The position numbers and the translations under genes were made by a program. Under the pieces are notes generated by a model. That model had not been told where the DNA came from and did not search any database. It saw only the letters and a list, made by a program, of their open reading frames with translations. Shown piece by piece: positions 1,455-22,399 of a stretch of 23,024 nucleotides of DNA. The DNA is from a virus, in IMG/VR virus record IMGVR_UViG_3300032288_001215, positions 1 to 23,024 of that record, one strand, 5' to 3'. Within the stretch, counting starts at the first letter, position 1. Each line of letters opens with the position of its first letter.

Positions 1455-3248
1455 ATGGCAACCAGAATCGAATCGCGTGGCGTTCAAATAGCAGCACCAG
1501 GTGGCACGCCTATGGAACGCGTGGTGCCGCAGCAGGTGGATTATATGGTGGCTGCCCGCGAAGAAGCGCGTACCTCTGCGACGATGGCTGACATTCTTGA
1601 CCGTATGTCGCAGACTGTATTTGGCATGGCAAAGGATATGGCGGCAGAAGAGGCGTTAAAGTTTGCTGCACAAAATCCAATTACCGATCAGCAATTGCAA
1701 CTGGCAAAAGAGGGTATGCCGTCGGCCATTCCTGGCGTTGGCAAACTTGGCAGCGACTTTACTGTCTACGGCAAGGCATTGCAAAAAGCCAGGATGCTGC
1801 AACTGTCTGGCCACTTTGAGATGGAAGGCCGCAACGAGCTAACCAAGCTGCTGGTAGATGTGCAGAATGGTAATGCCGATTCGCAAAACGTTGCTACTAA
1901 AATTGCCAATGTTACTGATGGCTATGCTAAGTCACTGTCGCAGATTGATGGCGAGGCTGCCATCAAGTTTCGTGCGACGATGGCAACGCATGGAAACACG
2001 GTATTGAATGCTGCATACGAAGCAGAGCAGAAGCGCAAGAAAGCCGCAGACATTTCCAAGTTTGACCTAGACTTTGACAATACTAAGCAGTTGCTTGAAG
2101 CTGCTGTATCTAGGGGATATTGGATTGATGAAAACAATCAACAAAGATCGGTTGATGACCTTTCTAGCATGATTCAAACAGCAATCGTCAATCAGTCAAT
2201 TTTGATTGGTGATGCTGGCATACAAAAAGAATACAGTGAAAAGTTTATGGTTGCGCTGCGTACAGCAAAGATCAATGCTGTAACTAAACATTTGACATCC
2301 GATGAGTTTCTAGCTGATCCATTGGCTACGCTAGACAAAATTAGGCGTGGCGATGTTGGAAAGATGAGCGCAGTGCTGCAGGAAATGACAAGAAATGATT
2401 TTGAGTCTGTGGCAAAGATCTCTGCTAATTTCATGCTGGCAGTAAACCAGCGCGAAGAGATTGGCAGGCGTAAGCGCGAAGATGAAAAGCGCAACGCAGA
2501 AGCAACAGCAATTGATTTGCTTGAGCAGATATATCCAATCAAAGACACCAAAAACCCAACACGCATAAAACTTGTTGAGAAACTAATGGCGCTGCCGCCT
2601 GGGTCGCTTCCTATTGGAACGATCAAGGATCTTCTCGAGCCGGAGAAAGAAGGATCTGGTGATTTGTTGGCTGAATACAATGCGGAAGGTTTAATCTTTG
2701 ATAACAAGATTACTACCAAAGCGCAGCTAGATAGAATTCCTGGTTTAAACCTTAAACAAAGAATGTCATTGCAACGGTTGATGAATAAGGAAAATAAATC
2801 TGGCGATAGAGAGCTAGATTCTGGATTGAACAAACTTGCCGGTATAAATGCCGATCCTGGAACAATTGTTGTGCTTGACAAGAACAGCGAAGAATTTAAA
2901 CGCAAACAAAGGTTAAAAATTAGATCTTTAGAAATACAGTCTGAGGCAATAGCAAAAGGCGAAACAATAAATGAGCGTCAAGTTTTGAATAAACTTGAAT
3001 CTGAAATTTTTGCAAAAGCAAATACTTCTGACGCAAAGCAAGCCAAGGAATCGCTAGATTACTTTGTGATTGATAAGAGCGGTCGCGCAAAGCCAGACAA
3101 GGATTGGATTACTGGCCCGATCAATCGGCAGACTTTGCCAGCGCTAAAGCAAAAGGCTGAAGCGACAAAAGATCCTGGTGACCGTACTAGAAGGCTGCGC
3201 CAGATCCAAGAACTTGAGCGCCTGCTAAAAATATCTGAGGGAGGCTGA
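1455..3248 (+). CDS. Internal virion (DNA ejection) protein, gp15-like position
   Basis: 597 residues, almost wholly predicted helical and charged, with no signal peptide or membrane segment. Residues about 30-75 contain an amphipathic Met/Ala-rich helix; residues about 330-360 are a Lys/Arg/Glu-rich coiled-coil-like stretch. Size, helical nature and position after the gp14-like protein match the middle internal core protein of T7-type podoviruses, which helps form the trans-envelope ejection conduit. I see no enzymatic motif. The ATG is preceded by AGAGGG. Base composition becomes visibly more A/T-rich from about 2500 to 3060 than at the gene's start, suggesting mosaic origin. Function is inferred mainly from context. 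Confidence 0.6.
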   Translation: MATRIESRGVQIAAPGGTPMERVVPQQVDYMVAAREEARTSATMADILDRMSQTVFGMAKDMAAEEALKFAAQNPITDQQLQLAKEGMPSAIPGVGKLGSDFTVYGKALQKARMLQLSGHFEMEGRNELTKLLVDVQNGNADSQNVATKIANVTDGYAKSLSQIDGEAAIKFRATMATHGNTVLNAAYEAEQKRKKAADISKFDLDFDNTKQLLEAAVSRGYWIDENNQQRSVDDLSSMIQTAIVNQSILIGDAGIQKEYSEKFMVALRTAKINAVTKHLTSDEFLADPLATLDKIRRGDVGKMSAVLQEMTRNDFESVAKISANFMLAVNQREEIGRRKREDEKRNAEATAIDLLEQIYPIKDTKNPTRIKLVEKLMALPPGSLPIGTIKDLLEPEKEGSGDLLAEYNAEGLIFDNKITTKAQLDRIPGLNLKQRMSLQRLMNKENKSGDRELDSGLNKLAGINADPGTIVVLDKNSEEFKRKQRLKIRSLEIQSEAIAKGETINERQVLNKLESEIFAKANTSDAKQAKESLDYFVIDKSGRAKPDKDWITGPINRQTLPALKQKAEATKDPGDRTRRLRQIQELERLLKISEGG

Positions 3249-3249
3249 A

Positions 3250-5640
3250 GTGGCATACAGCCAAATTGAACAGCGTTACATGGACATGATTGTGGAGGGG
3301 TACTTCCCCACCACGCCACCAGAGCCTGCGCCAGAGGAGCCTAGCCTAGAAGGTGTCCAGCTGGCCGCTGGCCCGAGCAAAACGCGCACAGACGCGCCTT
3401 CTGGTGCTGGCTTGCCTAAAGCGCCGACCACGCCTGAACAGGCTGCGGAGATGATGCGCAATATGCCGCTGGCAACGCAATCGGAAATGATCATGCGCAG
3501 GATTGCAGAGGATCAGAAGGCTGGCGTTGTAGGCTCTGTCATTCCAAAAGATATGACAATGCGTCAAAATATGGTTAGCGGTATGCAGCAGATGCTTATT
3601 GATAATACAGGCATGGACAATGCACGCGCACGCAAACTATCTGAAACGATGTTTGGTGGCGAAAGCTCTGGCATACCGTTAGGTATTGGCTTGATAGATT
3701 TAACGCCGTTTGTCATTCCACTTGCCGCGCAGGAGGCAGGCATCTCTGCTGGTGAGGCAAGAGAGGCTGCGCAGGCGGGCGAGTATGGCAAAGCTGCATT
3801 GAGTTACGGAACTGGCGTGCTGCAGGGATTGGATGTTGTGCCTGGCGTTGCGCTTGCCGCAAAAGGTGGCAAGGCTGTAGGCGAAGCGCTGGCACCAGTA
3901 GCCGGTGAAATGATTGAAGGCTATTTGCGCAAGACTGGCGGCTTGATGGATGTCGCTCCTGGCGGTGGGGCTGGAAATCCACTAACGCCAAAAATTGATT
4001 TGCTACCAGGCGTTAACGTCAATCCAGGAAATAAGATTGGCGTTGAACAAGATTTACGAGTTAAGGTTGCTGATTTAAATTTTGAAATGCCAGACAAGCC
4101 ATTGCTTGTTTTGTCTACTAATGAAAAGAATGTAAGCAAGCAAATTGAAAACTTAGATGTAATTTTTAATAAATTCCCGGATCCAATACTGACGCAAGAC
4201 TCTTGGACAAAAATACTGGGCTATGCTTTTAAAACAGACGAAGTTCCAGTTCCTCCATACGCAGCAATTAAAGCTCTTGAGTCTCCAGAAAATTTAGCAG
4301 CACCATTGCGTAAATTAACGCAAGGACAAATTGATGACGCAAGCGCAGGATTTAAAAACGCAGAACAATTTAAAGAGCTATATACATCTGGCAAAGCTGA
4401 TGTAGTTACTACTGGCAAACTATTTTTGTGGTCGTTCTTGTCTCGCGGTGTAAGCCCATATGTGCAAGAAGGTTTGTTTATGGACGCAATTAGCGGGATT
4501 GAACCTTTTATAAAAAAGGCAGCATCTGGAAAATTTGATAAAGCAGATTTGAATGAGTATTTGAATTGGGCATCAACCGTTGCTGGTAAGGGTTCTGGTC
4601 AACCAGGCTCTGGCGCAATGCATAACCTTAATGCGTTTGGCAAAAACTTTTTAACAAAGTTGGCAATTAAGGATGCTGATGGAATTACTGGCTTGCAAAA
4701 AGTCCATGAAATGATGGCAAACCCAAATATGAGCGGGCCACAAATTAGGCGAGAGTTTGCAAAGATCGGAACAGGTGTCGGTATTGATAATAAGGTTGTA
4801 AGTTTTACGTTGCTTGTCAGTGGCCGCACTGATGTGCTTGTGATTGATCGGGTGCAATTAAGAAACCTTTGGGATGATGGAAGATTTGCTGGTAAGAATC
4901 TGTGGGATGGCCGTTCTGAAAAAAGAATGGTTAAGAAAAAAGACGGAAAAGAAGTGGAAGAAAGCGCTCAAATTGCAGGCACCGCACTTTCCGAAATTAC
5001 ATATGGTGCCAAAGGTTTGCTTGTGTATGAGGCAATTGAAAGAGCGATGGCGCAGCGCCTTAAGGAAGCGTACCGATTGGTTGGCCGCGAAGGCGATGCC
5101 TCGCTTGGTCGCTATCATTGGGAAACATGGGTTGCTGGATCACAGCAAGAAGCTAGCCACGGAACAATTGACGCGATCATGCGTGAAGCCGCTGGAGTGC
5201 CGCAGCCATTTAAGGGTGTGACGGCCAAGCAAGGCGAATACGGAATGTATGACTACGGGGCAAAATATGGTGTGGATGATGCCGGGCCATATTTTATTTA
5301 TGACAACTCTAAAGGCGAACAATATAGGTTTACCGTGCCAGAATACCGTGATATGTTGACGGCAATAAAAGATCCAAAATCAGGTGTTGTTCCAAAAAAT
5401 TTCAGAGTTTCTTCCAGTGGCAACGCGCCTTGGTTTGAACGGCCTGAAGTCAATAGGAGTAAGTTAGATGAACTTATCGCAGCAAGAGGCAGCAGAATTG
5501 GAAACGCGCCAGGTGGAGAACAATCTATTCCAGCAAATGGCAAAAGTCCAACAACCAATGCAGCCAGAACAAGAACCGCAAGAGCAAGAAGCTCAATCGT
5601 AAAAGGGAGCGCCATTGCTCCAGAACAAGGAGCTGAATAA
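3250..5640 (+). CDS. Internal virion protein with an Ogg-like HhH DNA glycosylase signature
   Basis: 796 residues from a GTG start one base after the upstream stop. Residues 1-60 are Pro-rich, then a helical region, then a hydrophobic Gly/Ala stretch at about 141-215 that could insert in a membrane. Residues about 430-560 hold the notable part: GIDNK (Lys515), a Ser, a hydrophobic run, Gly525, then VIDR (Asp533) and a Leu/Arg-rich helix. This matches the helix-hairpin-helix-GPD pattern of archaeal Ogg glycosylase/lyases, where a catalytic Lys and Asp are also 18 residues apart. A further conserved-looking block, YHWETW, lies near residue 625. The C-terminal 60 residues are low complexity. Context says it is packaged and ejected; enzymatic activity is inferred only from the motif. 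The A/T-rich 4017-5000 segment contains the domain. Confidence 0.62.
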   Translation: MAYSQIEQRYMDMIVEGYFPTTPPEPAPEEPSLEGVQLAAGPSKTRTDAPSGAGLPKAPTTPEQAAEMMRNMPLATQSEMIMRRIAEDQKAGVVGSVIPKDMTMRQNMVSGMQQMLIDNTGMDNARARKLSETMFGGESSGIPLGIGLIDLTPFVIPLAAQEAGISAGEAREAAQAGEYGKAALSYGTGVLQGLDVVPGVALAAKGGKAVGEALAPVAGEMIEGYLRKTGGLMDVAPGGGAGNPLTPKIDLLPGVNVNPGNKIGVEQDLRVKVADLNFEMPDKPLLVLSTNEKNVSKQIENLDVIFNKFPDPILTQDSWTKILGYAFKTDEVPVPPYAAIKALESPENLAAPLRKLTQGQIDDASAGFKNAEQFKELYTSGKADVVTTGKLFLWSFLSRGVSPYVQEGLFMDAISGIEPFIKKAASGKFDKADLNEYLNWASTVAGKGSGQPGSGAMHNLNAFGKNFLTKLAIKDADGITGLQKVHEMMANPNMSGPQIRREFAKIGTGVGIDNKVVSFTLLVSGRTDVLVIDRVQLRNLWDDGRFAGKNLWDGRSEKRMVKKKDGKEVEESAQIAGTALSEITYGAKGLLVYEAIERAMAQRLKEAYRLVGREGDASLGRYHWETWVAGSQQEASHGTIDAIMREAAGVPQPFKGVTAKQGEYGMYDYGAKYGVDDAGPYFIYDNSKGEQYRFTVPEYRDMLTAIKDPKSGVVPKNFRVSSSGNAPWFERPEVNRSKLDELIAARGSRIGNAPGGEQSIPANGKSPTTNAARTRTARARSSIVKGSAIAPEQGAE

Positions 5641-8558
5641 TGGCCAACTCACTTGAGCAGCGTCTAGGTTCTATCCTGCCTGACCCAGCGGCACCGGCTA
5701 CCGGTGAGGTTCCGCTTGAGCCGTTCCCAATAGAAGCGCCTGCAGAGTCGCCTGATATGCTGGCTGGTGATCCTGGCTCACCCAGCATGGACGGGATGCA
5801 GGTTGCTGGTCTTGGCTCTATCCTGCGCAAAGCAGTCACCAAAGCAGAGCCCAGCGCTGGCCGCCGGATACTGAGCGATGTAACGCCAGCAGGTGAATTG
5901 CCGGAGGCTGGCAAGGTCGGTCGGATGACCGTTATTCCTGAAGCTGACCAGGCATTGGCTGACAAGGTTAAGCAGGCCACAGAGGCCCGCCAGGCTGCTG
6001 GCGCAACCAAGGGCAAACCATCACCCACCACCGCAGAGCGTGCCGCTGGTGTGCCGGTTGAGCCATTTAACCTATCGCGCTACCAGACTGATGACGCTGC
6101 CGCTGTAGTTGGTGGCGTGGCTGATGCGCTTGGCATCAAGACCCAGCGCGTCACGTTTGATGAGATCAAGCAGAAGGCAGAAGCCAGCGGTATTAGCGAG
6201 TCATTCCTTGCCAGGCTAACCACGCCTGATGGCGGGATGCTGCCCAGCGCTGTGGATACCTACAAGGCACTGCAGGTGCTGGAGTCGAGCGCTGTTGAAC
6301 TAGATCGTTTATTCAAGCTGGTGGATTCTGGCATGGCCACCGATGTGGACAAGCTGGCGCTACGTCAGCAGATTGCTTTCCACGGGCTGGTGCAGAAGGG
6401 TGTCAAAGGCATCCAGACTGAAACAGCTCGAGCGCTGGCTGTGATGCGTATGCCACGCGATGGCAAGTCACAGGCACTGCGCCAGGTGCTGGATGAGTTT
6501 GGTGGCGACAATGCGCTGACCGATCTGGCACGGTCTTACATATCGCTGGAGGGTCGCGCAGCCAAGAATGCTCTGGTAGAAAAGTCGATGATGTCAGGTG
6601 TCAAAGACGTATGGATGACAACCTGGATCAATGGCCTGCTATCGTCGCCTGTGACCCACGCCAAGAACATTGTTTCTAACTCGCTATTCGGTCTGTACCA
6701 GATCCCCGAACGCTTGGTGGCTGGCCTGTATTCCAACTATTTGCCGCAGAAGATAAGAGCCGGAGAGCTGCTACCTGGGCTGCGCTGGTTTGGCGACAGA
6801 GTGCCAGGCAGCGAGGCCGAGCGCATTGAACTGGACGAAGCATTGACGATGACGTTGTCGCTGCGCAATGCCATCATGGAAGGCTTTGAGCTGGCCTCCA
6901 AGGCGTGGAAAACGAACAGCCCACAGCTCGACATTGCCAGCAAGGTTGAACTCAGCCGCGCCCCTATGGAAGGTTTGGGCGAATCCTTGCAGCGCATGAC
7001 AGGTGCCAAGCCTGATAGTTGGATTGGCAAGGGCATGGATTACTACGGCACAGCGATCACCTTGCCTGGCCGTGCGTTGATGACTGAAGATGAATTCTTC
7101 AAGGGCGTGCTGTACCGCATGGAGATGAATGCGCAGATAACGCGCCGCTCGAAGAAGATCTACCGCGAGTCGCTGGCATCTGGCATGAATGAACAGGACG
7201 CAATTGCTCGGGCAACCAAGGAAGCCGAGGATCTGCTGGCCAACCCGCCACGCGACTTGGATGAGGCTGCGATGGAGTTTGCCAAACAAGGCACTTTCCA
7301 GGCAGATCTGCCACCAGCTCTGGCTTCACTGCAGCGCGTATTCAATCACCCAGTTGGCAAGATCATCGTGCCATTCTTTAAGACACCGGCAAATATTGGA
7401 TTGAATGTTGTGGAGCGCACACCGTTTGCTCCGCTGTCATCTCGGTGGCGGCAGGAGATTGCAGCCGGTGGCCCGCAGCGCGACATGGCAATGGCCAAGG
7501 TATCGCTGGGCTCAACCGTGTTGGCAGGCTTTGCCTTGTGGGCTGCAGAAGGCAACCTGACCGGTCGCGGGCCAGAACGCAAAGAAGAGCGCGATGCCTT
7601 GATGCGCACGGGCTGGCAGCCCTACAGCATGAAGCTGGGCGACAAATGGTACAGCTTCCAAGGCATGGAGCCGATTGGCGCTTTGATGGCCATTGCTGCT
7701 GACTATGCCGAGTATGCCAAGCATGAGCCAGATGCTGGCAAGGTTGAGGAGGTATTCCTTGGCGCGACCTATGGCTTGTATGAGTACCTGAAAGAGCAGC
7801 CCTATTTGCAGGGCATTGCTGATGTTGGCAAGCTGATTGGCTTCAATGAGTCTGGCCGGGTTGATGGCGAGAAGATTGTCAACGGACTGACCAAGCAGTT
7901 TGGTGGTTTCCTAATTGGCGGCTCGCCTGGCGGCGCATACAGCTCATCGGTAGCAGCCATTGATCGCCTGCTAGATCCGACTAGGAAGGACACCAAGGCC
8001 AGTCCAGATCTGCCAATGGGCGTGCGTGGTTTTGTCGAAGCATTCAACCAGTACCGCAGCCGCTTGCCTTACTTCAGCGAGTCTGTGCCTGATGCGCTCA
8101 ATCTGTGGGGCGATACCATGAAGCGCAGCCAAGGCAACCCACTAGAGCTGGTGCTGCCGACCAGGGTGTCGCCAGATCAATTCTCTGAGGTGGATGACTT
8201 GCTGGTGGAGATCGGCTCACCGATTGGTGTGCCTGACCGCAAGACATCATTTACCCTGGGCGAAGGTGCAGGCTCAATGTCATCACCAATTGAATTGTCG
8301 CCAGAGCAATATAACCGGCTGCTGACAATTTATGGCAAGGAAACTGCAGCCAAGCAGACGATTCTCGACACCATGCAAATGCCAGGGTATGACCTGCTGC
8401 CGCTGGATCAGAAACAGAAGATGATTCAAGGCGTACACAGTAAATTCATGGGCTTTGCAAAAAGACAACTGATGTCAGAATTCCCTGAAATTCAAGACAA
8501 AATCATAGAGGTTGGCGAGGCTCGTCAATCCTATGGCATCTATTACAAACCAGATTAA
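5640..8558 (+). CDS. Large internal virion / DNA ejection protein
   Basis: 972 residues; the ATG overlaps the preceding TAA (TAATG). Residues 1-130 are Pro/Ala/Gly-rich and probably unstructured. The block around residues 320-350, containing TWINGLLSSPVTHAKN, is a motif I associate with very large phage ejection proteins. Residues about 600-640 contain a hydrophobic Ala/Leu/Val stretch ending in ALWAAEG that could be a membrane helix, and other Gly/Ala hydrophobic segments follow around 760. I find no lytic transglycosylase motif, unlike T7 gp16. As the largest protein of the late cluster, placed just before the fibre, it is likely the inner ejection protein that crosses the cytoplasmic membrane. 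Composition is G/C-richer than in the upstream gene, so the junction near 5600 may be a recombination boundary. Confidence 0.62.
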   Translation: MANSLEQRLGSILPDPAAPATGEVPLEPFPIEAPAESPDMLAGDPGSPSMDGMQVAGLGSILRKAVTKAEPSAGRRILSDVTPAGELPEAGKVGRMTVIPEADQALADKVKQATEARQAAGATKGKPSPTTAERAAGVPVEPFNLSRYQTDDAAAVVGGVADALGIKTQRVTFDEIKQKAEASGISESFLARLTTPDGGMLPSAVDTYKALQVLESSAVELDRLFKLVDSGMATDVDKLALRQQIAFHGLVQKGVKGIQTETARALAVMRMPRDGKSQALRQVLDEFGGDNALTDLARSYISLEGRAAKNALVEKSMMSGVKDVWMTTWINGLLSSPVTHAKNIVSNSLFGLYQIPERLVAGLYSNYLPQKIRAGELLPGLRWFGDRVPGSEAERIELDEALTMTLSLRNAIMEGFELASKAWKTNSPQLDIASKVELSRAPMEGLGESLQRMTGAKPDSWIGKGMDYYGTAITLPGRALMTEDEFFKGVLYRMEMNAQITRRSKKIYRESLASGMNEQDAIARATKEAEDLLANPPRDLDEAAMEFAKQGTFQADLPPALASLQRVFNHPVGKIIVPFFKTPANIGLNVVERTPFAPLSSRWRQEIAAGGPQRDMAMAKVSLGSTVLAGFALWAAEGNLTGRGPERKEERDALMRTGWQPYSMKLGDKWYSFQGMEPIGALMAIAADYAEYAKHEPDAGKVEEVFLGATYGLYEYLKEQPYLQGIADVGKLIGFNESGRVDGEKIVNGLTKQFGGFLIGGSPGGAYSSSVAAIDRLLDPTRKDTKASPDLPMGVRGFVEAFNQYRSRLPYFSESVPDALNLWGDTMKRSQGNPLELVLPTRVSPDQFSEVDDLLVEIGSPIGVPDRKTSFTLGEGAGSMSSPIELSPEQYNRLLTIYGKETAAKQTILDTMQMPGYDLLPLDQKQKMIQGVHSKFMGFAKRQLMSEFPEIQDKIIEVGEARQSYGIYYKPD

Positions 8559-15968: not shown

Positions 15969-16036
15969 CCCTGCGCCACTCCTGCGCGACCAAGGTGGAT
16001 CAGCGGGTTTTCCCGGTTACTCGCCGGGATTTTTTT
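15961..16036 (+). terminator. Composite terminator ending the late operon
   Basis: There are two hairpins in series. First, CCCGCTGA (15961-15968) pairs perfectly with TCAGCGGG (16000-16007) and is followed by TTTT. Second, CCCGG (16012-16016) pairs with CCGGG (16024-16028), followed by A and seven T. The T-runs orient both for the + strand. The leftward recT gene ends at 16017 in the second loop, so convergent transcription meets here; I see no T-run for the - strand. Confidence 0.8.
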
Positions 16037-17039
16037 CCTTGTCATTCATGGTGGCACCCAAGATCTTAAGCCTGCGCTGATACTGCTCGGTGTGCTTGGT
16101 CTTGGCCACCAGGTCTAACCTGTCAATGGTGTCCTTGTTGACATCCTTCAACTGCCGCAGCGCTGTCATTCGCTGGCGCTCGGGTGCCTTGCCTGCGGTC
16201 AGTGTCTTCTCAGCGATTGCTTCATAGGCATCCGACCATTCTTGCTGGCTGTTGTGGCCTGACAGAATGCGCGGTTCACTGTCTTCGCCTTTCCCTGGCA
16301 CCAGCAGAAGCAGGCCTTCAGGCACAGCAGGTTCTGCAGCAGGTTCTGCAGCAGGTTCTGCAGATTCGGCAGCCGCATTCTGCAACTCAGCATTGATCTC
16401 ATCCAGGTCTGGCACATACTCATCTGCGGTTGGCAGCGGAGCTGGTGGCGGGATCATGTCCAGCGGATTGGCAGGCAGTGGCGTGACATCCTTTGGTGGC
16501 CGTGGCTTTGCCTCATCTGGAAAGTCTTGCGCTTCTTCGACAGTGATCAGGCCTTTCAACGCGTCAGGAAAGGCATCTCTTAAGGCGAAACCTCTGGCCC
16601 GCATCTGCATCATGCGCTTTGGGTACGCCTGCCACGGGCCTTGCTTGCCCCATAAGCCAGCACGCTTGGCATCCTCGACGCTGAACTTAGCGACCACCGG
16701 CTTGCGGCCACGGCGCTTGGCCACGCAGACTGCTGTCGGGTTGGGCGTGTTCTCATTCTCAAAGTATTCTTCGATGTCCTCGCAGTGTGGCGAGGCCTGC
16801 ACCAGGGCCATTGCTGCGTCACCGTAGACGCTAGGCTTCCCATTGATGACCGCGATATTCTGCAGTGCCTGCATCGGTGCCAGGCCAATCTCAGCGCCCC
16901 ACTGCATGGCCACCAGCACATCGAGTGGTTTGCCGGTGTAGGCCTTTGGCACCAGGCTGGACGATGCCAGCTCCTCTGCAAACTGCCTGGCTTCGGTAAA
17001 GGTAGTGGGTGCGAATCCTTGTCTAGTGGTTAGTTGCAT
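16017..17039 (-). CDS. recT: RecT-family single-strand annealing protein
   Basis: 340 residues from ATG 17039; that start is preceded by AGGAG with 6-base spacing, whereas ATG 17045 lies against the RBS. Residues about 5-175 match the RecT/Bet style I know from proteobacterial phages: FAEELASSSLVPK, then DVLVAMQWGAEIGL, ALQNIAVINGKPSVYGDAA, AKRAGLWGKQGPWQ and MMQMRARGFALRDAFPDAL. RecT coats ssDNA and anneals complementary strands in exonuclease-dependent recombination. The rest (about 180-340) is a Pro/Ala/Glu linker with AAEP repeats and a basic C-terminus. It is the last gene of the leftward operon, two genes after its partner exonuclease, and ends in the terminator loop. Confidence 0.9.
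   Translation of the reverse strand: MQLTTRQGFAPTTFTEARQFAEELASSSLVPKAYTGKPLDVLVAMQWGAEIGLAPMQALQNIAVINGKPSVYGDAAMALVQASPHCEDIEEYFENENTPNPTAVCVAKRRGRKPVVAKFSVEDAKRAGLWGKQGPWQAYPKRMMQMRARGFALRDAFPDALKGLITVEEAQDFPDEAKPRPPKDVTPLPANPLDMIPPPAPLPTADEYVPDLDEINAELQNAAAESAEPAAEPAAEPAVPEGLLLLVPGKGEDSEPRILSGHNSQQEWSDAYEAIAEKTLTAGKAPERQRMTALRQLKDVNKDTIDRLDLVAKTKHTEQYQRRLKILGATMNDKEKNPGE
16328..16363 (-). repeat. Triplicate 12-bp repeat in recT linker
   Basis: Three exact tandem copies of CAGGTTCTGCAG (+ strand). On the - strand they encode a repeated AEPA unit in the linker after the annealing domain. In-frame slippage would only alter linker length. Confidence 0.85.
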
Positions 17040-17211
17040 CGTCATCTCCTGGTGTCGGTAAAAAGGCTTGCAGTGTGTACAGAATCAGCGCGGTAAAAGC
17101 CTCGACAATCTCCTCGGCTTCTTCCTCGCTGCACTTAGGTATGGTGTTCAGCAGCGAAACAACAGCGCGTGCGTGTGCTTCTTCAAGTTTGGTCGGGTCG
17201 CGCCAGATCAT
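17023..17211 (-). CDS. Small acidic protein between exonuclease and recT
   Basis: 62 residues beginning MIWRDPTKLEEAHARAVVSL. A strong RBS (AAGGAGG) lies 4 bases before the ATG, and the ATG overlaps the exonuclease stop (ATGA). It is acidic, mostly helical, with one hydrophobic helix (EAFTALILYTLQAFL) that may be amphipathic rather than membrane-spanning. Its end overlaps the recT start by about 17 bases. I do not recognise the family. Tight coupling between exonuclease and annealase genes suggests a recombination-associated role, an inference only. Confidence 0.65.
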   Translation of the reverse strand: MIWRDPTKLEEAHARAVVSLLNTIPKCSEEEAEEIVEAFTALILYTLQAFLPTPGDDDATNH

Positions 17212-18164
17212 GCGACCTCCTTGATCGACAGCGTTGACTGCCTGATGCTATACGCATCCTTCGCAGGCACAACCTTCTCTGCTGTGGCTTTGTAGCTGCG
17301 CATTGGCCAGCGGATCTCGAAGCGTCCAATGCTGGCCTTGGCAGCCTGGCCCATCATTGCCTTCAGCTCAGTCTCAGCTTCGCTGCGGCGACCCTCGGCT
17401 GCCTTGATGTCGGCGTTGGCGGTCACGATCTGATCGACCAATTGCTCGGCTCGACCAGGCAGGTTGACCACCAGGTTTTCGTCGGCTGCCGGGTACATAC
17501 GGTCGGCATCCTTTGGATTGGCTGGCGGGTAGAAGTCGATCTCGCCTGTAGCTTTGTACTTCTCGAGCTTGTTCTGGAACTCCAGCACGGCTGTCTTAAT
17601 GGTGTAGAGGGTCTGCTGGTGTGGCTCAAAGAGGAAGATGCGCAGGGTGGTGCCTTGGTACAGCACGGCCAGCGCACCCCACTTCGCCTGCATGATGTCC
17701 ATCTGTGCCTGCAACTGCACTGGCCCACGGTACAGCGCTGGGATCTCCTCGGGTGCCACGGCTGTCAGCTTGGCCTCGAGTACGCCAAAGCCGTCGAGCA
17801 TGATCTCATCCTGGCCAACCACGATGATGCCTGCGTCAGTGTCGGTGCGGATCTTCTGGCCACGGCCATGCGCGTAGCCATCCAGGCTGCAGGCTAGCGG
17901 CAGTGTGTCGTGAAAGAATGCCGAATCAAACTCGGTAGACAGCTCGAACAGCTCGAGCCGCTTGGCAGTTTCCCGCAGGATCATGGACTCGAGCCGATCA
18001 CCCCAGGCCATTGCTTCGTTCTGTTTGTCTTCGCGTGGCACACCCTTGGCTGCGTTGATTGAGAACTGCAGCTCATCGTTGGGTGTCTGATACTTGGACA
18101 GGCCCAGCAGCGCAGGCAGGCGGCTGGCGCTCATCATGTAATCAGGTGTTTTTTTTCCGGCCAT
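17208..18164 (-). CDS. YqaJ/lambda-Exo-type 5'-3' exonuclease
   Basis: 318 residues. The PD-(D/E)XK nuclease core is readable: SASRLPALLGLSKY at the N-terminus, WGDRLES with an acidic residue near 56-59, CSLDG with Asp95, LEAK with Glu130 and Lys132, and the helical Q-motif PVQLQAQMDIM at about 149-157. This is the YqaJ/lambda exonuclease arrangement, which resects one strand of dsDNA to produce the ssDNA that RecT anneals. Residues about 235-300 contain a helical region not needed for catalysis. The RBS AGGAGA lies 6 bases before the ATG. Together with RecT this forms a Red/RecET-like recombination pair. Confidence 0.88.
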   Translation of the reverse strand: MAGKKTPDYMMSASRLPALLGLSKYQTPNDELQFSINAAKGVPREDKQNEAMAWGDRLESMILRETAKRLELFELSTEFDSAFFHDTLPLACSLDGYAHGRGQKIRTDTDAGIIVVGQDEIMLDGFGVLEAKLTAVAPEEIPALYRGPVQLQAQMDIMQAKWGALAVLYQGTTLRIFLFEPHQQTLYTIKTAVLEFQNKLEKYKATGEIDFYPPANPKDADRMYPAADENLVVNLPGRAEQLVDQIVTANADIKAAEGRRSEAETELKAMMGQAAKASIGRFEIRWPMRSYKATAEKVVPAKDAYSIRQSTLSIKEVA

Positions 18165-18457: not shown

Positions 18458-18534
18458 ATGACACCCGCCACAAAGAACAGGGCAAAAATGACGGCCATGC
18501 CGAGCAGGAAACCGTTGAAGAAATCGTCGCTCAT
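18454..18534 (-). CDS. 26-aa membrane peptide
   Basis: ATG 18534 overlaps the recombinase stop (ATGA) and is preceded by GAGGTG with 5-base spacing. MSDDFFNGF is followed by a continuous hydrophobic helix (LLGMAVIFALFFVAGVI) to the end, so it should be a single-pass membrane peptide. Its stop overlaps the next ATG (ATGA). Overlaps on both sides and the RBS support translation despite the small size. Function is unknown. Confidence 0.6.
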   Translation of the reverse strand: MSDDFFNGFLLGMAVIFALFFVAGVI

Positions 18535-19178
18535 GCTGCACCTCGCTGGATTAGGTTGGAGACTTGGGCTGGCAGCCACTTGGTATTGCCACGGGCTGTC
18601 TGCACGCCACGGGCCTGCAGAGCGGTGGCGATTGCACGCAGGCTGGTGGCACCAGAGCGCTGGATGTCGGCGATGATGGGCATCACCTTGGCTGCGAATG
18701 CGTCAGCGTTGGCACGGCCAGCGGCTGCACCTGCGACGGCTGCTGCTTGCGGGTTTGGGTTACCCAGGCGAACGCCACGGGCCTTGGCAGCCTGCAATGC
18801 TGCCTTGGTGCGGCGGCTGATCTCCTCGCGCTCATGCTGTGCGACCACAGCGCGGATACCAAACTCAAGGGTGCCAGCGTGTGGCATATCGGCTGCAACG
18901 ATCTGCACACCAGAGTCACGCAGGGTCAGCAGGAAGGCTGCCTGGCGGCTCAGTCGGTCGATCTTGGCGATCAACAGTGCGCTGCCGGTGGCTTTGCACA
19001 TTGCGATGGCGGCGGCTAACTGTGGCCGGTCATCGTGCTTGCCTGATTCAATCTCGGTAAAGCTGTGGATGATGCTGTCAGCGTAGGCTTTGACTTGTGC
19101 CTGCTGGGCTTCGAGGCCCAGGCCTGACTGGCCCTGGCGCTCGGTGGAAACGCGGAAGTATGCGACGTAGGAGGTCAT
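18531..19178 (-). CDS. Small serine recombinase (resolvase/invertase family)
   Basis: 215 residues. The N-terminal catalytic domain starts VAYFRVSTERQG with nucleophile Ser11 and Arg9; KIDRLSR (about 72-78) is the conserved arginine loop. QHEREEISRRTKAALQAAKARG (about 114-135) is the long E helix. The C-terminal 45 residues (TSLRAIATALQARG then KWLPAQVSNLIQR) are a helix-turn-helix. The size fits resolvase/invertase enzymes rather than large phage serine integrases. It may resolve multimers, invert a segment, or act in lysogeny; no crossover site is evident. RBS GGAGG precedes the ATG by 7 bases. The position at the head of the recombination operon, close to the control region, could place its target there. 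Confidence 0.9.
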   Translation of the reverse strand: MTSYVAYFRVSTERQGQSGLGLEAQQAQVKAYADSIIHSFTEIESGKHDDRPQLAAAIAMCKATGSALLIAKIDRLSRQAAFLLTLRDSGVQIVAADMPHAGTLEFGIRAVVAQHEREEISRRTKAALQAAKARGVRLGNPNPQAAAVAGAAAGRANADAFAAKVMPIIADIQRSGATSLRAIATALQARGVQTARGNTKWLPAQVSNLIQRGAA

Positions 19179-19791: not shown

Positions 19792-20261
19792 TGCGGATCA
19801 TGGACATACCCGGCCATGAGGGTCGCTATGCCGCCAGCGAGTATGGCGAAATCTGGTCGCACATCAGCAAAAAGTGGCTGAAACAATGCACCACGCCAAA
19901 CGGTTACCGAGTAGTTGGTTTGTGGAAGCCTGGCGCAAAGAATGCAAAAGCGACCTTTGTGCATCGACTAGTTGCGGAAGCGTTCCTGCCTTTTGATCCG
20001 GTAAGAAATCGGGTGAATCACATAAATGGGATTAAGGCAGATAACCGACTGGTCAACCTCGAGCGTTGCACCAGTAGCGAAAACAATCAACACGCGTATG
20101 ACGCCGGACTTAAAGCGCCTGCACACCGAAAGTTGACCCAAGAGCAGGCAAGACGTGTTCGTTATGGTGGCGAGCGCCTGAAAGATTTGTCTGCTGAGTT
20201 GGGCATGTCGATGTCTGCTCTATGCCAAGTGAGAAGCGGCGCAACCTGGAGAAATTTATGA
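19791..20261 (+). CDS. NUMOD4-HNH endonuclease with C-terminal HTH
   Basis: 156 residues from ATG 19791 (GTG 19788 is an alternative one codon earlier). Residues 5-35 (IPGHEGRYAASEYGEIWS) are the NUMOD4 module. Residues about 55-92 are the HNH_3 core: FVHRLVAEAF with His58, VNHINGIKADNRLVNLE with His77 and Asn residues. Residues about 114-150 (KLTQEQARRVRYG... LKDLSAELGMSMSALCQVRSG) are a helix-turn-helix of the type that ends many phage homing nucleases. It lies between the regulator and the resolvase-like gene in an otherwise compact operon, and may be a homing element or a phage DNA-processing nuclease. Confidence 0.88.
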   Translation: MRIMDIPGHEGRYAASEYGEIWSHISKKWLKQCTTPNGYRVVGLWKPGAKNAKATFVHRLVAEAFLPFDPVRNRVNHINGIKADNRLVNLERCTSSENNQHAYDAGLKAPAHRKLTQEQARRVRYGGERLKDLSAELGMSMSALCQVRSGATWRNL

Positions 20262-20614
20262 ACGGTCGGGGGCGTAGGAACAAAGGGAGCCACGCCGAAC
20301 GTGAGATCGCTGCGATATTGACCGATCAATTGGGTTTTGTTGTGAAACGCAATTTAGGACAAGCGCGTGATGGTGGGGATGACATCACCATTGGTCAGTA
20401 TCGACTTGAAATTAAGCGCCAGGAGCGGCTGCAGATTGATGCGTGGTCGCAACAGGTGGAGGCCTGCGCCAATCCCAGCGAGGTGCCGGTGGTAGTCTAC
20501 AGGCGCAACGGCCAGCCCTGGCGGGTCTGTCTTTTACTGGAGGACTTCATACCGATGATGCGCGATCAGTTAACAGGAGGAAACAATGCAGAACACTTTG
20601 AAGTTGGCGACTGA
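20258..20614 (+). CDS. PD-(D/E)XK nuclease, Hjc-like Holliday-junction resolvase type
   Basis: 118 residues from ATG 20258, with GGAG upstream and overlapping the HNH stop (ATGA). A start at 20222 would lie inside the HNH gene without need. The catalytic pattern is clear: RNKGSHAEREIAAIL with Glu14/Glu16, RDGGDDITI with Asp41/Asp42, and LEIKRQ with Glu51 and Lys53, in the order used by archaeal Hjc and phage resolvases. It would cut four-way junctions during recombination or packaging. The last third (SEVPVVVYRRNGQPWRVCLLLEDF) forms the expected closing strands. It complements the Exo/RecT pair of the opposite arm. Confidence 0.72.
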   Translation: MNGRGRRNKGSHAEREIAAILTDQLGFVVKRNLGQARDGGDDITIGQYRLEIKRQERLQIDAWSQQVEACANPSEVPVVVYRRNGQPWRVCLLLEDFIPMMRDQLTGGNNAEHFEVGD

Positions 20615-21601: not shown

Positions 21602-21653
21602 CCGTATAAGGAATTCGGAAAACCGTATACGGAATTCGGAGCTGGCGTTGTGA
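21594..21653 (+). CDS. Very small ORF, 19 aa, over the direct repeat
   Basis: ATG 21594 lies inside the end of the preceding gene and the TGA overlaps the next GTG start (GTGA), so it could couple translation across the repeat. It encodes MTDRIRNSENRIRNSELAL, a doubled RIRNSE unit reflecting the DNA repeat. It may simply be a leader; weakly supported. Confidence 0.25.
   Translation: MTDRIRNSENRIRNSELAL
21602..21640 (+). repeat. Tandem 18-bp direct repeat with palindromic core
   Basis: CCGTATAAGGAATTCGGA (21602-21619) and CCGTATACGGAATTCGGA (21623-21640) differ at one base and have a 21-base period. The second copy contains the perfect palindrome CCGTATACGG, and both contain GAATTC. Two helical turns apart, they could be bound by adjacent protomers of a regulator or initiator. 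Confidence 0.8.
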
Positions 21654-22399
21654 TTCACTATCACGGGTTGCCAATAACACCAGCCACAGCGGCTGTGCAG
21701 GCCATTGATGGCGGCCATGCATTTGTTAGCTTTGTGCATTCAGATCAACTGTCGATTGCGTTGGAGGTTGCGCAGTCATTTGCTTTGGATAACGGCGCAT
21801 TCTCAGCCTGGCGCAGCGGTAAGCCGGTGACTGATTGGGGTGATTACTACGAATGGATTGCCGAGTTGCACCGATACCCAGGCTTTGACTTTGCCGTGAT
21901 TCCTGACGTTATTGACGGCGACGAAGCTGCCAACGATGCGTTACTTGATGAATGGCCGTGGCGTAACTCGGCTCCTTGGGTTGGTGCGCCTGTGTGGCAT
22001 TTGCATGAGTCGCTGGAGCGTTTAGAGCGGCTTGTATTGAGCTGGCCACGTATTTGCCTGGGCAGTTCTGGCGACTACGCTGTAATTGGCACTGATGCCT
22101 GGTGGCAGCGTATGAGCCAGGCAATGGACGTTATTTGCGACCGTGCTGGCCGACCAGCGTGCAAGGTGCATGGGCTTAGGATGCTAGATCCAGCAGTGTT
22201 TTCAAAGTTTCCATTTGCCTCGGCAGACAGCACAAACATTGGCAGGAATGTCGGCATTGATAGCAAGTGGCGTGGAACCTACACGCCACCGACCAAGGAA
22301 GCTCGAGCAGCAGTCATGCGCACTAGGATTGAGGCACACCAAGCACAGGTGTTCTGGGATCGGAAGCTAAATCCTATTCAGCAGGGATTGTTTACATGA
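21650..22399 (+). CDS. TIM-barrel TGT/DpdA-like transglycosylase candidate
   Basis: 249 residues from GTG 21650. Motifs fall in the order of the TGT fold: FALDNGAFSAW (Asp47) resembles the LDSGGFQ base-binding loop; FAVIPDVIDG (Asp86) the second Asp loop; PVWHLHE and ICLGSSG the GLAVGE-like turn; CKVHGLRMLDPAVF and FASADSTNIGRN (Asp193) the region holding the nucleophile. In tRNA-guanine transglycosylases and phage DpdA these swap guanine for a 7-deazaguanine. No zinc motif is evident, as in some DpdA-type proteins. No queuosine/preQ0 synthesis gene is in the window, so any base would come from the host or genes elsewhere. The overlap with neighbours ties it to replication genes. Confidence 0.6.
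   Translation: MIHYHGLPITPATAAVQAIDGGHAFVSFVHSDQLSIALEVAQSFALDNGAFSAWRSGKPVTDWGDYYEWIAELHRYPGFDFAVIPDVIDGDEAANDALLDEWPWRNSAPWVGAPVWHLHESLERLERLVLSWPRICLGSSGDYAVIGTDAWWQRMSQAMDVICDRAGRPACKVHGLRMLDPAVFSKFPFASADSTNIGRNVGIDSKWRGTYTPPTKEARAAVMRTRIEAHQAQVFWDRKLNPIQQGLFT

Follow-up and report, generated by a model that had tools for sequence, protein, structure and literature searches.

The window analyzed here, a 23,024-nucleotide stretch of virus DNA (positions 1 to 23,024 of IMG/VR record IMGVR_UViG_3300032288_001215), contains an open reading frame with a GTG start codon (3250-5640, plus strand) that encodes a 796-residue protein. We consider it probable that this is an internal virion protein of the ejection type, in which a constant N-terminal part is joined to an exchangeable C-terminal effector cassette, here a diverged Ogg2-like helix-hairpin-helix (HhH)-GPD glycosylase/apurinic-apyrimidinic (AP) lyase domain. 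Sequence conservation and structure modeling predict that this domain has the HhH-GPD glycosylase fold with the lyase Lys/Asp pair and is nearest to the Ogg2 enzymes (PF22175), represented by Methanocaldococcus jannaschii Ogg (MjOgg, PDB 3fhf and 3knt), TmOgg (3n0u) and SsOgg (3fhg). The module probably works like a base-excision glycosylase/lyase. The features of this gene and of its immediate neighbors described below all lie on the plus strand.

An AlphaFold2 model was built for residues 253-747 (predicted local distance difference test, pLDDT, 90; predicted template modeling score, pTM, 0.86), and the structure matches given below are those of this prediction, not of a solved structure. 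A sequence-only reading of the window had proposed an Ogg-type glycosylase/lyase in this protein, to be checked by profile searches and by comparison of a predicted structure with archaeal Ogg. Among the matches listed by VIA-align 2, four Ogg2 entries were the best (Z-scores of 14.6, 14.6, 14.3 and 14.0, with 203-208 residues aligned). For MjOgg, 204 of 207 residues were aligned with model residues 95-385 (Z 14.6, root-mean-square deviation 2.9), and TmOgg was aligned over model residues 89-385 (Z 14.6), the likeness in fold extending over nearly the whole enzyme. The Ogg2 entries were followed by endonuclease III-3 (10.2), OGG1 (9.5), ROS1 (9.5) and Qng1 (8.8), further down by MagIII, MutY and AGOG, then by PUGT (4.6 and 4.0) and, from 3.3, by unrelated proteins. 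Each of the top 28 rows (Z 5.5-14.6) was an HhH-type glycosylase or the related Qng1, and no later row exceeded 4.6. The model and the aligned range place the predicted Ogg2-like HhH-GPD core at residues 341-637 (4270-5160). Residues 638-747 (5161-5490) form an additional C-terminal part of the module, which is confidently predicted, lies outside the aligned range and has no Ogg2 counterpart. The predicted HhH comprises residues 496-523 (4735-4818): helices 496-506 and 514-523 flank the hairpin GVGIDN, K515 is placed at the start of the second HhH helix, and D533 stands just ahead of the next helix.

Residues 504-540 of the protein read AKIGTGVGIDNKVVSFTLLVSGRTDVLVIDRVQLRNL, and K515, S518, G525 and D533 are all located within GVGIDNKVVSFTLLVSGRTDVLVIDRVQ. 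The positions that the sequence-only reading gave for these four residues are correct in the translation of the open reading frame, as is the spacing of 18 between Lys515 and Asp533, the same as in archaeal Ogg; the Methanocaldococcus motif that it quoted as GIGMK actually reads GIGYK...IIDRH in MjOgg. IMG/VR was searched in three rounds, the last of which yielded 68 module-bearing loci with identity down to about 42%, and 43 sequences with identity down to about 48% were aligned over 495 columns (alignment A3). All four residues are identical in 43 of 43 sequences, together with the Arg-Val that follows Asp533 and with G509, G511, D513 and N514 in the hairpin. Lys515 (4792-4794), the predicted Schiff-base/catalytic lysine, is aligned with the catalytic lysine position of MjOgg, and Asp533 (4846-4848), the predicted catalytic aspartate, with the aspartate of IIDRH. 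The pair stands 18 apart at the same places as in Ogg2.

The outcome of the profile searches was mixed. The A3 profile, compared with 177,635 PDB sequences, ranked MjOgg (3fhf) first (E 0.031), and in this alignment the Lys and Asp of the module fell in register on the MjOgg catalytic pair, i.e. positions 129 and 147 as counted along the printed 3knt chain, which has Gln at 129. The Pfam family Ogg-HhH (PF22175) was matched by three of the 43 members, under the curated cut-off (best E 0.0028), and nothing in the window matched Pfam HhH-GPD (PF00730), a model that did match control genomes. The protein contains three K-18-D pairs, and the spacing was therefore rejected as stand-alone evidence. 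Of 5000 shuffles, 138 (2.8%) contained the motif in degenerate form (G[IVL]x(1-3)K-x17-D[RTV]); taken alone, the motif is only a lead. What raises it above chance is its invariance in the 43 homologues, the MjOgg profile match with the pair in register, and the predicted fold. The sequence-only reading had staked its proposal on a glycosylase-fold match and on conservation of Lys515 and Asp533, and both were found.

Several observations weigh against this assignment. Searches of Pfam, NCBIfam, PHROGs and the PDB with the window protein as a single sequence gave no significant family, and hhalign, by which the module was compared with Ogg and Nth alignments of small size, gave no significant result, though Lys and Asp were in register in the best alignments. 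The sequence-level links all lie near threshold (E 0.0028-0.03); none is decisive alone, and all point in one direction. About 90 of the 495 A3 columns are invariant, so that the invariance of the Lys/Asp pair partly reflects general strong conservation, and the hairpin reads GIDNK instead of GIGYK, the second glycine being replaced. By itself, the Foldseek match is weak (E 0.88, probability 0.90), and helical models can reach Z-scores of 13-14 in VIA-align from their arrangement alone. The latter explanation is argued against by the consistency of the match list and by the gap beneath its top rows.

The module was not found by tblastn among the INPHARED phages (about 50,700 phage records), and three weak, short tblastn matches in plasmids (E 0.6-9) were taken as chance. 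A scan of bacterial genomes for cellular homologues gave a single contig of 58.6 kb (L104:8001-9476) in an alphaproteobacterial metagenome-assembled genome, where the module copy may belong to a prophage or to a co-binned phage. One close relative (L002:6763-8280) is missing about 38 residues immediately behind the DRVQLR motif, where the model has a predicted beta-hairpin; the loss may reflect a natural deletion or an assembly fault.

The predicted domain lies in a part of the protein that is exchanged between relatives. Residues 1-239 (3250-3966) form a constant N-terminal part with 77-98% identity in 21 IMG/VR loci that differ from one another in their C-terminal parts. The edges of the exchangeable cassette (about 3960-5630) were set by blastn against eight relatives (L011, L012, L014, L016, L017, L228, L230 and L242), with which similarity ends at 3875-3961 and returns at 5617-5652, around the gene end. 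In L003 and L007 the cassette DNA is common (4005-5644) and that of the N-terminal part is not. GC content drops abruptly at residue 241, where its value at third codon positions (GC3) falls from 0.48 to 0.27, and remains low until about residue 600. Since this step falls at the left edge of the cassette, the earlier impression of an A/T-rich, acquired domain was right in substance, but what was acquired comprises almost all of the C-terminal two thirds of the protein and not the core domain alone.

In other loci, the slot is occupied by DUF7178 (L017, L237, L238 and L244), by DUF7178-related modules (L242, L243 and, weakly, L240, which matches DUF7178 at E 0.0023, under the cut-off), by another module type (L016, L229, L239 and L241), by an ART-PolyVal ADP-ribosyltransferase (L228:4501-5841, E 9e-17) or by short unassigned modules that are ART-like by eye (L014/L231 and L230). 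Also by eye, K..F..NL.G....D.W patterns in the modules of L229, L239, L241 and L240 recall the same fold. The slot is nearly empty in L011, L012, L226, L234 and L235, which encode a protein of about 230 residues with the flanks joined almost directly. Such an interchangeable cassette suggests an injected, swappable tool for attacking or editing DNA.

The L242-type module (L242:5215-6153) matched Pfam DUF7178 (PF23802) with 34.0 bits at a cut-off of 27. Its AlphaFold2 model (pLDDT 92.8) was most similar to the same four Ogg2 entries (Z 11.8, 11.7, 11.1 and 10.9), and its Lys178 and Asp196, also 18 apart, are invariant in 32 sequences (alignment A8). Comparison of the window module with the L242-type module by hhalign revealed no significant similarity (E 0.26), with Lys and Asp aligned gap-free. 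DUF7178 proper (alignment A7) has an invariant Lys232 and Asp253 at a spacing of 21. The DUF7178-type modules are like the window module in occupying the same slot and, in the L242-type member, in the predicted fold and the Lys/Asp spacing, but they lack significant sequence similarity to it and have other conserved residues (SGPKVNSF, TNDAWMA). DUF7178 is common in viral contigs, with relatives of the L017 module encoded in 544 stretches; the family has no described function, and its name was not found in the literature searched. The larger result, beyond what the sequence-only reading had proposed, is a swap slot that accommodates two or more families of predicted glycosylase fold.

The gene is embedded among genes of internal virion proteins. 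Upstream lie a gene of the family phrog_418 (789-1451, E 1.5e-5) and a gene encoding an unassigned 597-residue protein (1455-3248), which keeps the same gene order as in relatives and is 43% identical over 328 residues to its L006 equivalent; a gene of the family phrog_6651 (5640-8558, E 1.5e-32) follows downstream. In L063, a distant relative, the module gene again follows a phrog_418 gene and a gene for a 590-residue protein, and its product has 2823 residues; in many distant relatives the module is part of a protein of about 1,000-3,900 residues. Three of four large relatives that were scanned have the polyvalent-protein domains LPD22 or ART-PolyVal. Polyvalent proteins are multi-domain proteins of phages and conjugative elements thought to be injected together with DNA, and the text of their catalogue names no glycosylase domain (PMC5512222). 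Their traits (unlike effector domains, LPD/ART-PolyVal context and exchangeability) are found in the relatives and in the slot, whereas the window protein itself is short, with a single effector module and no matched LPD domain. Judging from its internal virion protein neighbors and polyvalent-type relatives, the 796-residue protein is likely ejected with the phage DNA.

Elsewhere in the window, the gene at 21650-22399 belongs to the phrog_887 'queuine tRNA-ribosyltransferase' family (E 1.5e-72), resembles proteins from 104 phage records and could encode a DpdA-like DNA transglycosylase. A general link of the module to 7-deazaguanine DNA modification via this gene was dropped, as a TGT-like gene was present in 0 of 39 module-bearing contigs, which are fragmentary and form a set without a positive control. 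The regions 16017-18164, 18531-19178 and 20222-20614 encode members of RecT-like annealing protein, RecE-like exonuclease, DNA invertase/integrase-type recombinase and RusA-like resolvase families; these recombination-family genes share the contig with podovirus-type internal virion proteins.

In the mechanism that we propose for the ejected glycosylase/lyase, the domain would enter the cell with the phage genome, the HhH would bind DNA and a base would be flipped out. The glycosidic bond would be cleaved with the assistance of Asp533; Lys515 would be able to form a Schiff base and may nick the strand at the abasic site. The target would probably be a modified or damaged base rather than 8-oxoguanine (8-oxoG), present in host DNA or else added by the host to the incoming phage DNA. 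Because the slot is exchanged with ADP-ribosyltransferases, a role as an effector, in taking over the host or in counter-defense, is favored over routine repair.

The alternative that survives best, though an unlikely one, is an enzyme of the same fold that is not a DNA glycosylase but has a nucleotide or hypermodified base as its substrate, for example like Qng1, a queuosine-nucleotide hydrolase, or the phage glycinyltransferase PUGT. Both are among the structure matches (Z 8.8 and 4.6, respectively), and Qng1 too uses Lys and Asp, given that its entries are titled with the active-site mutants K199C and D231N; polyvalent proteins are also said to include enzymes that alter nucleotide signaling (PMC5512222). 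However, Ogg2, endonuclease III and OGG1 score clearly higher in the structure comparison, and K-18-D in an HhH is the spacing of DNA glycosylases.

Slightly less probable still is a functional Ogg2, i.e. a true 8-oxoG glycosylase delivered to repair oxidized phage DNA at entry, as might be expected from Ogg2 being both the nearest fold and the nearest PDB sequence. Ogg2 reads 8-oxoG by means of its C-terminal Lys, which is strictly conserved and whose carboxylate is needed to distinguish 8-oxoG from G, with an Asp and a Trp placed on the base as well (PMC3397491). The C-terminus of MjOgg corresponds in the structural alignment to about residue 637, and since the window chain extends about 160 residues beyond that point, to residue 796, this C-terminal Lys sensor is impossible here. 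The His of the Ogg2 DRH is replaced by Val (DRV) in 43 of 43 sequences. His623 and Trp627 (5116-5130), both invariant in the 43 sequences and spaced by 4 as in Ogg2, likely stand at the place of Ogg2 Asp194 and Trp198, a placement deduced from the aligned ends; His623 appears to take the position of the 8-oxoG-contacting Asp, whereas the stacking Trp, in favor of the repair enzyme, appears to be kept as Trp627. Exchange with ADP-ribosyltransferase modules, moreover, suits an effector better than routine repair. With the catalytic features present and the 8-oxoG-reading features absent, the module should not be classed as Ogg2, from which it also differs by an identity of about 11-16%, by its extra N- and C-terminal parts and by its fusion to a virion-type protein. 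Of the Ogg-type proposal, the HhH-GPD fold nearest to Ogg2 and the invariant Lys/Asp pair hold, and the identity as Ogg by substrate is not supported.

A catalytically dead HhH-GPD fold that only binds DNA in packaging or ejection seems the least probable: HhH motifs do bind the DNA backbone, ejection proteins may touch DNA, the glycosylase activity is so far predicted and the second hairpin glycine is replaced, but invariance of K515, D533 and further polar residues in 43 of 43 sequences, and of the pair 18 apart in the 32 sister-module sequences, would not be needed for binding alone.

For DUF7178, the L242-type model points to a fold and hence to a testable function. Phages with the same flanks but another module or an empty slot form a natural comparison set for finding the target of the window module. 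If the proposed glycosylase/lyase is active, base excision would be delivered at the first moment of infection, ahead of any gene expression. A broader reading, to which we give somewhat less than an even chance, is that one slot in an ejected virion protein serves as a swap bay for several glycosylase-fold families (the Ogg2-like module, the DUF7178 types, perhaps others), which would alternate with ADP-ribosyltransferases, base excision being an injected, rapidly exchanged weapon or counter-defense. Base excision is used as a weapon in phage-bacterium conflict by Brig1, a monofunctional bacterial anti-phage DNA glycosylase (PMC11078745); Brig1 is a bacterial defense with a uracil-glycosylase fold, whereas the window module would act on the phage side and has a predicted HhH-GPD fold. 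If true, the swap bay would be a phage-side mirror of bacterial glycosylase defenses such as Brig1.
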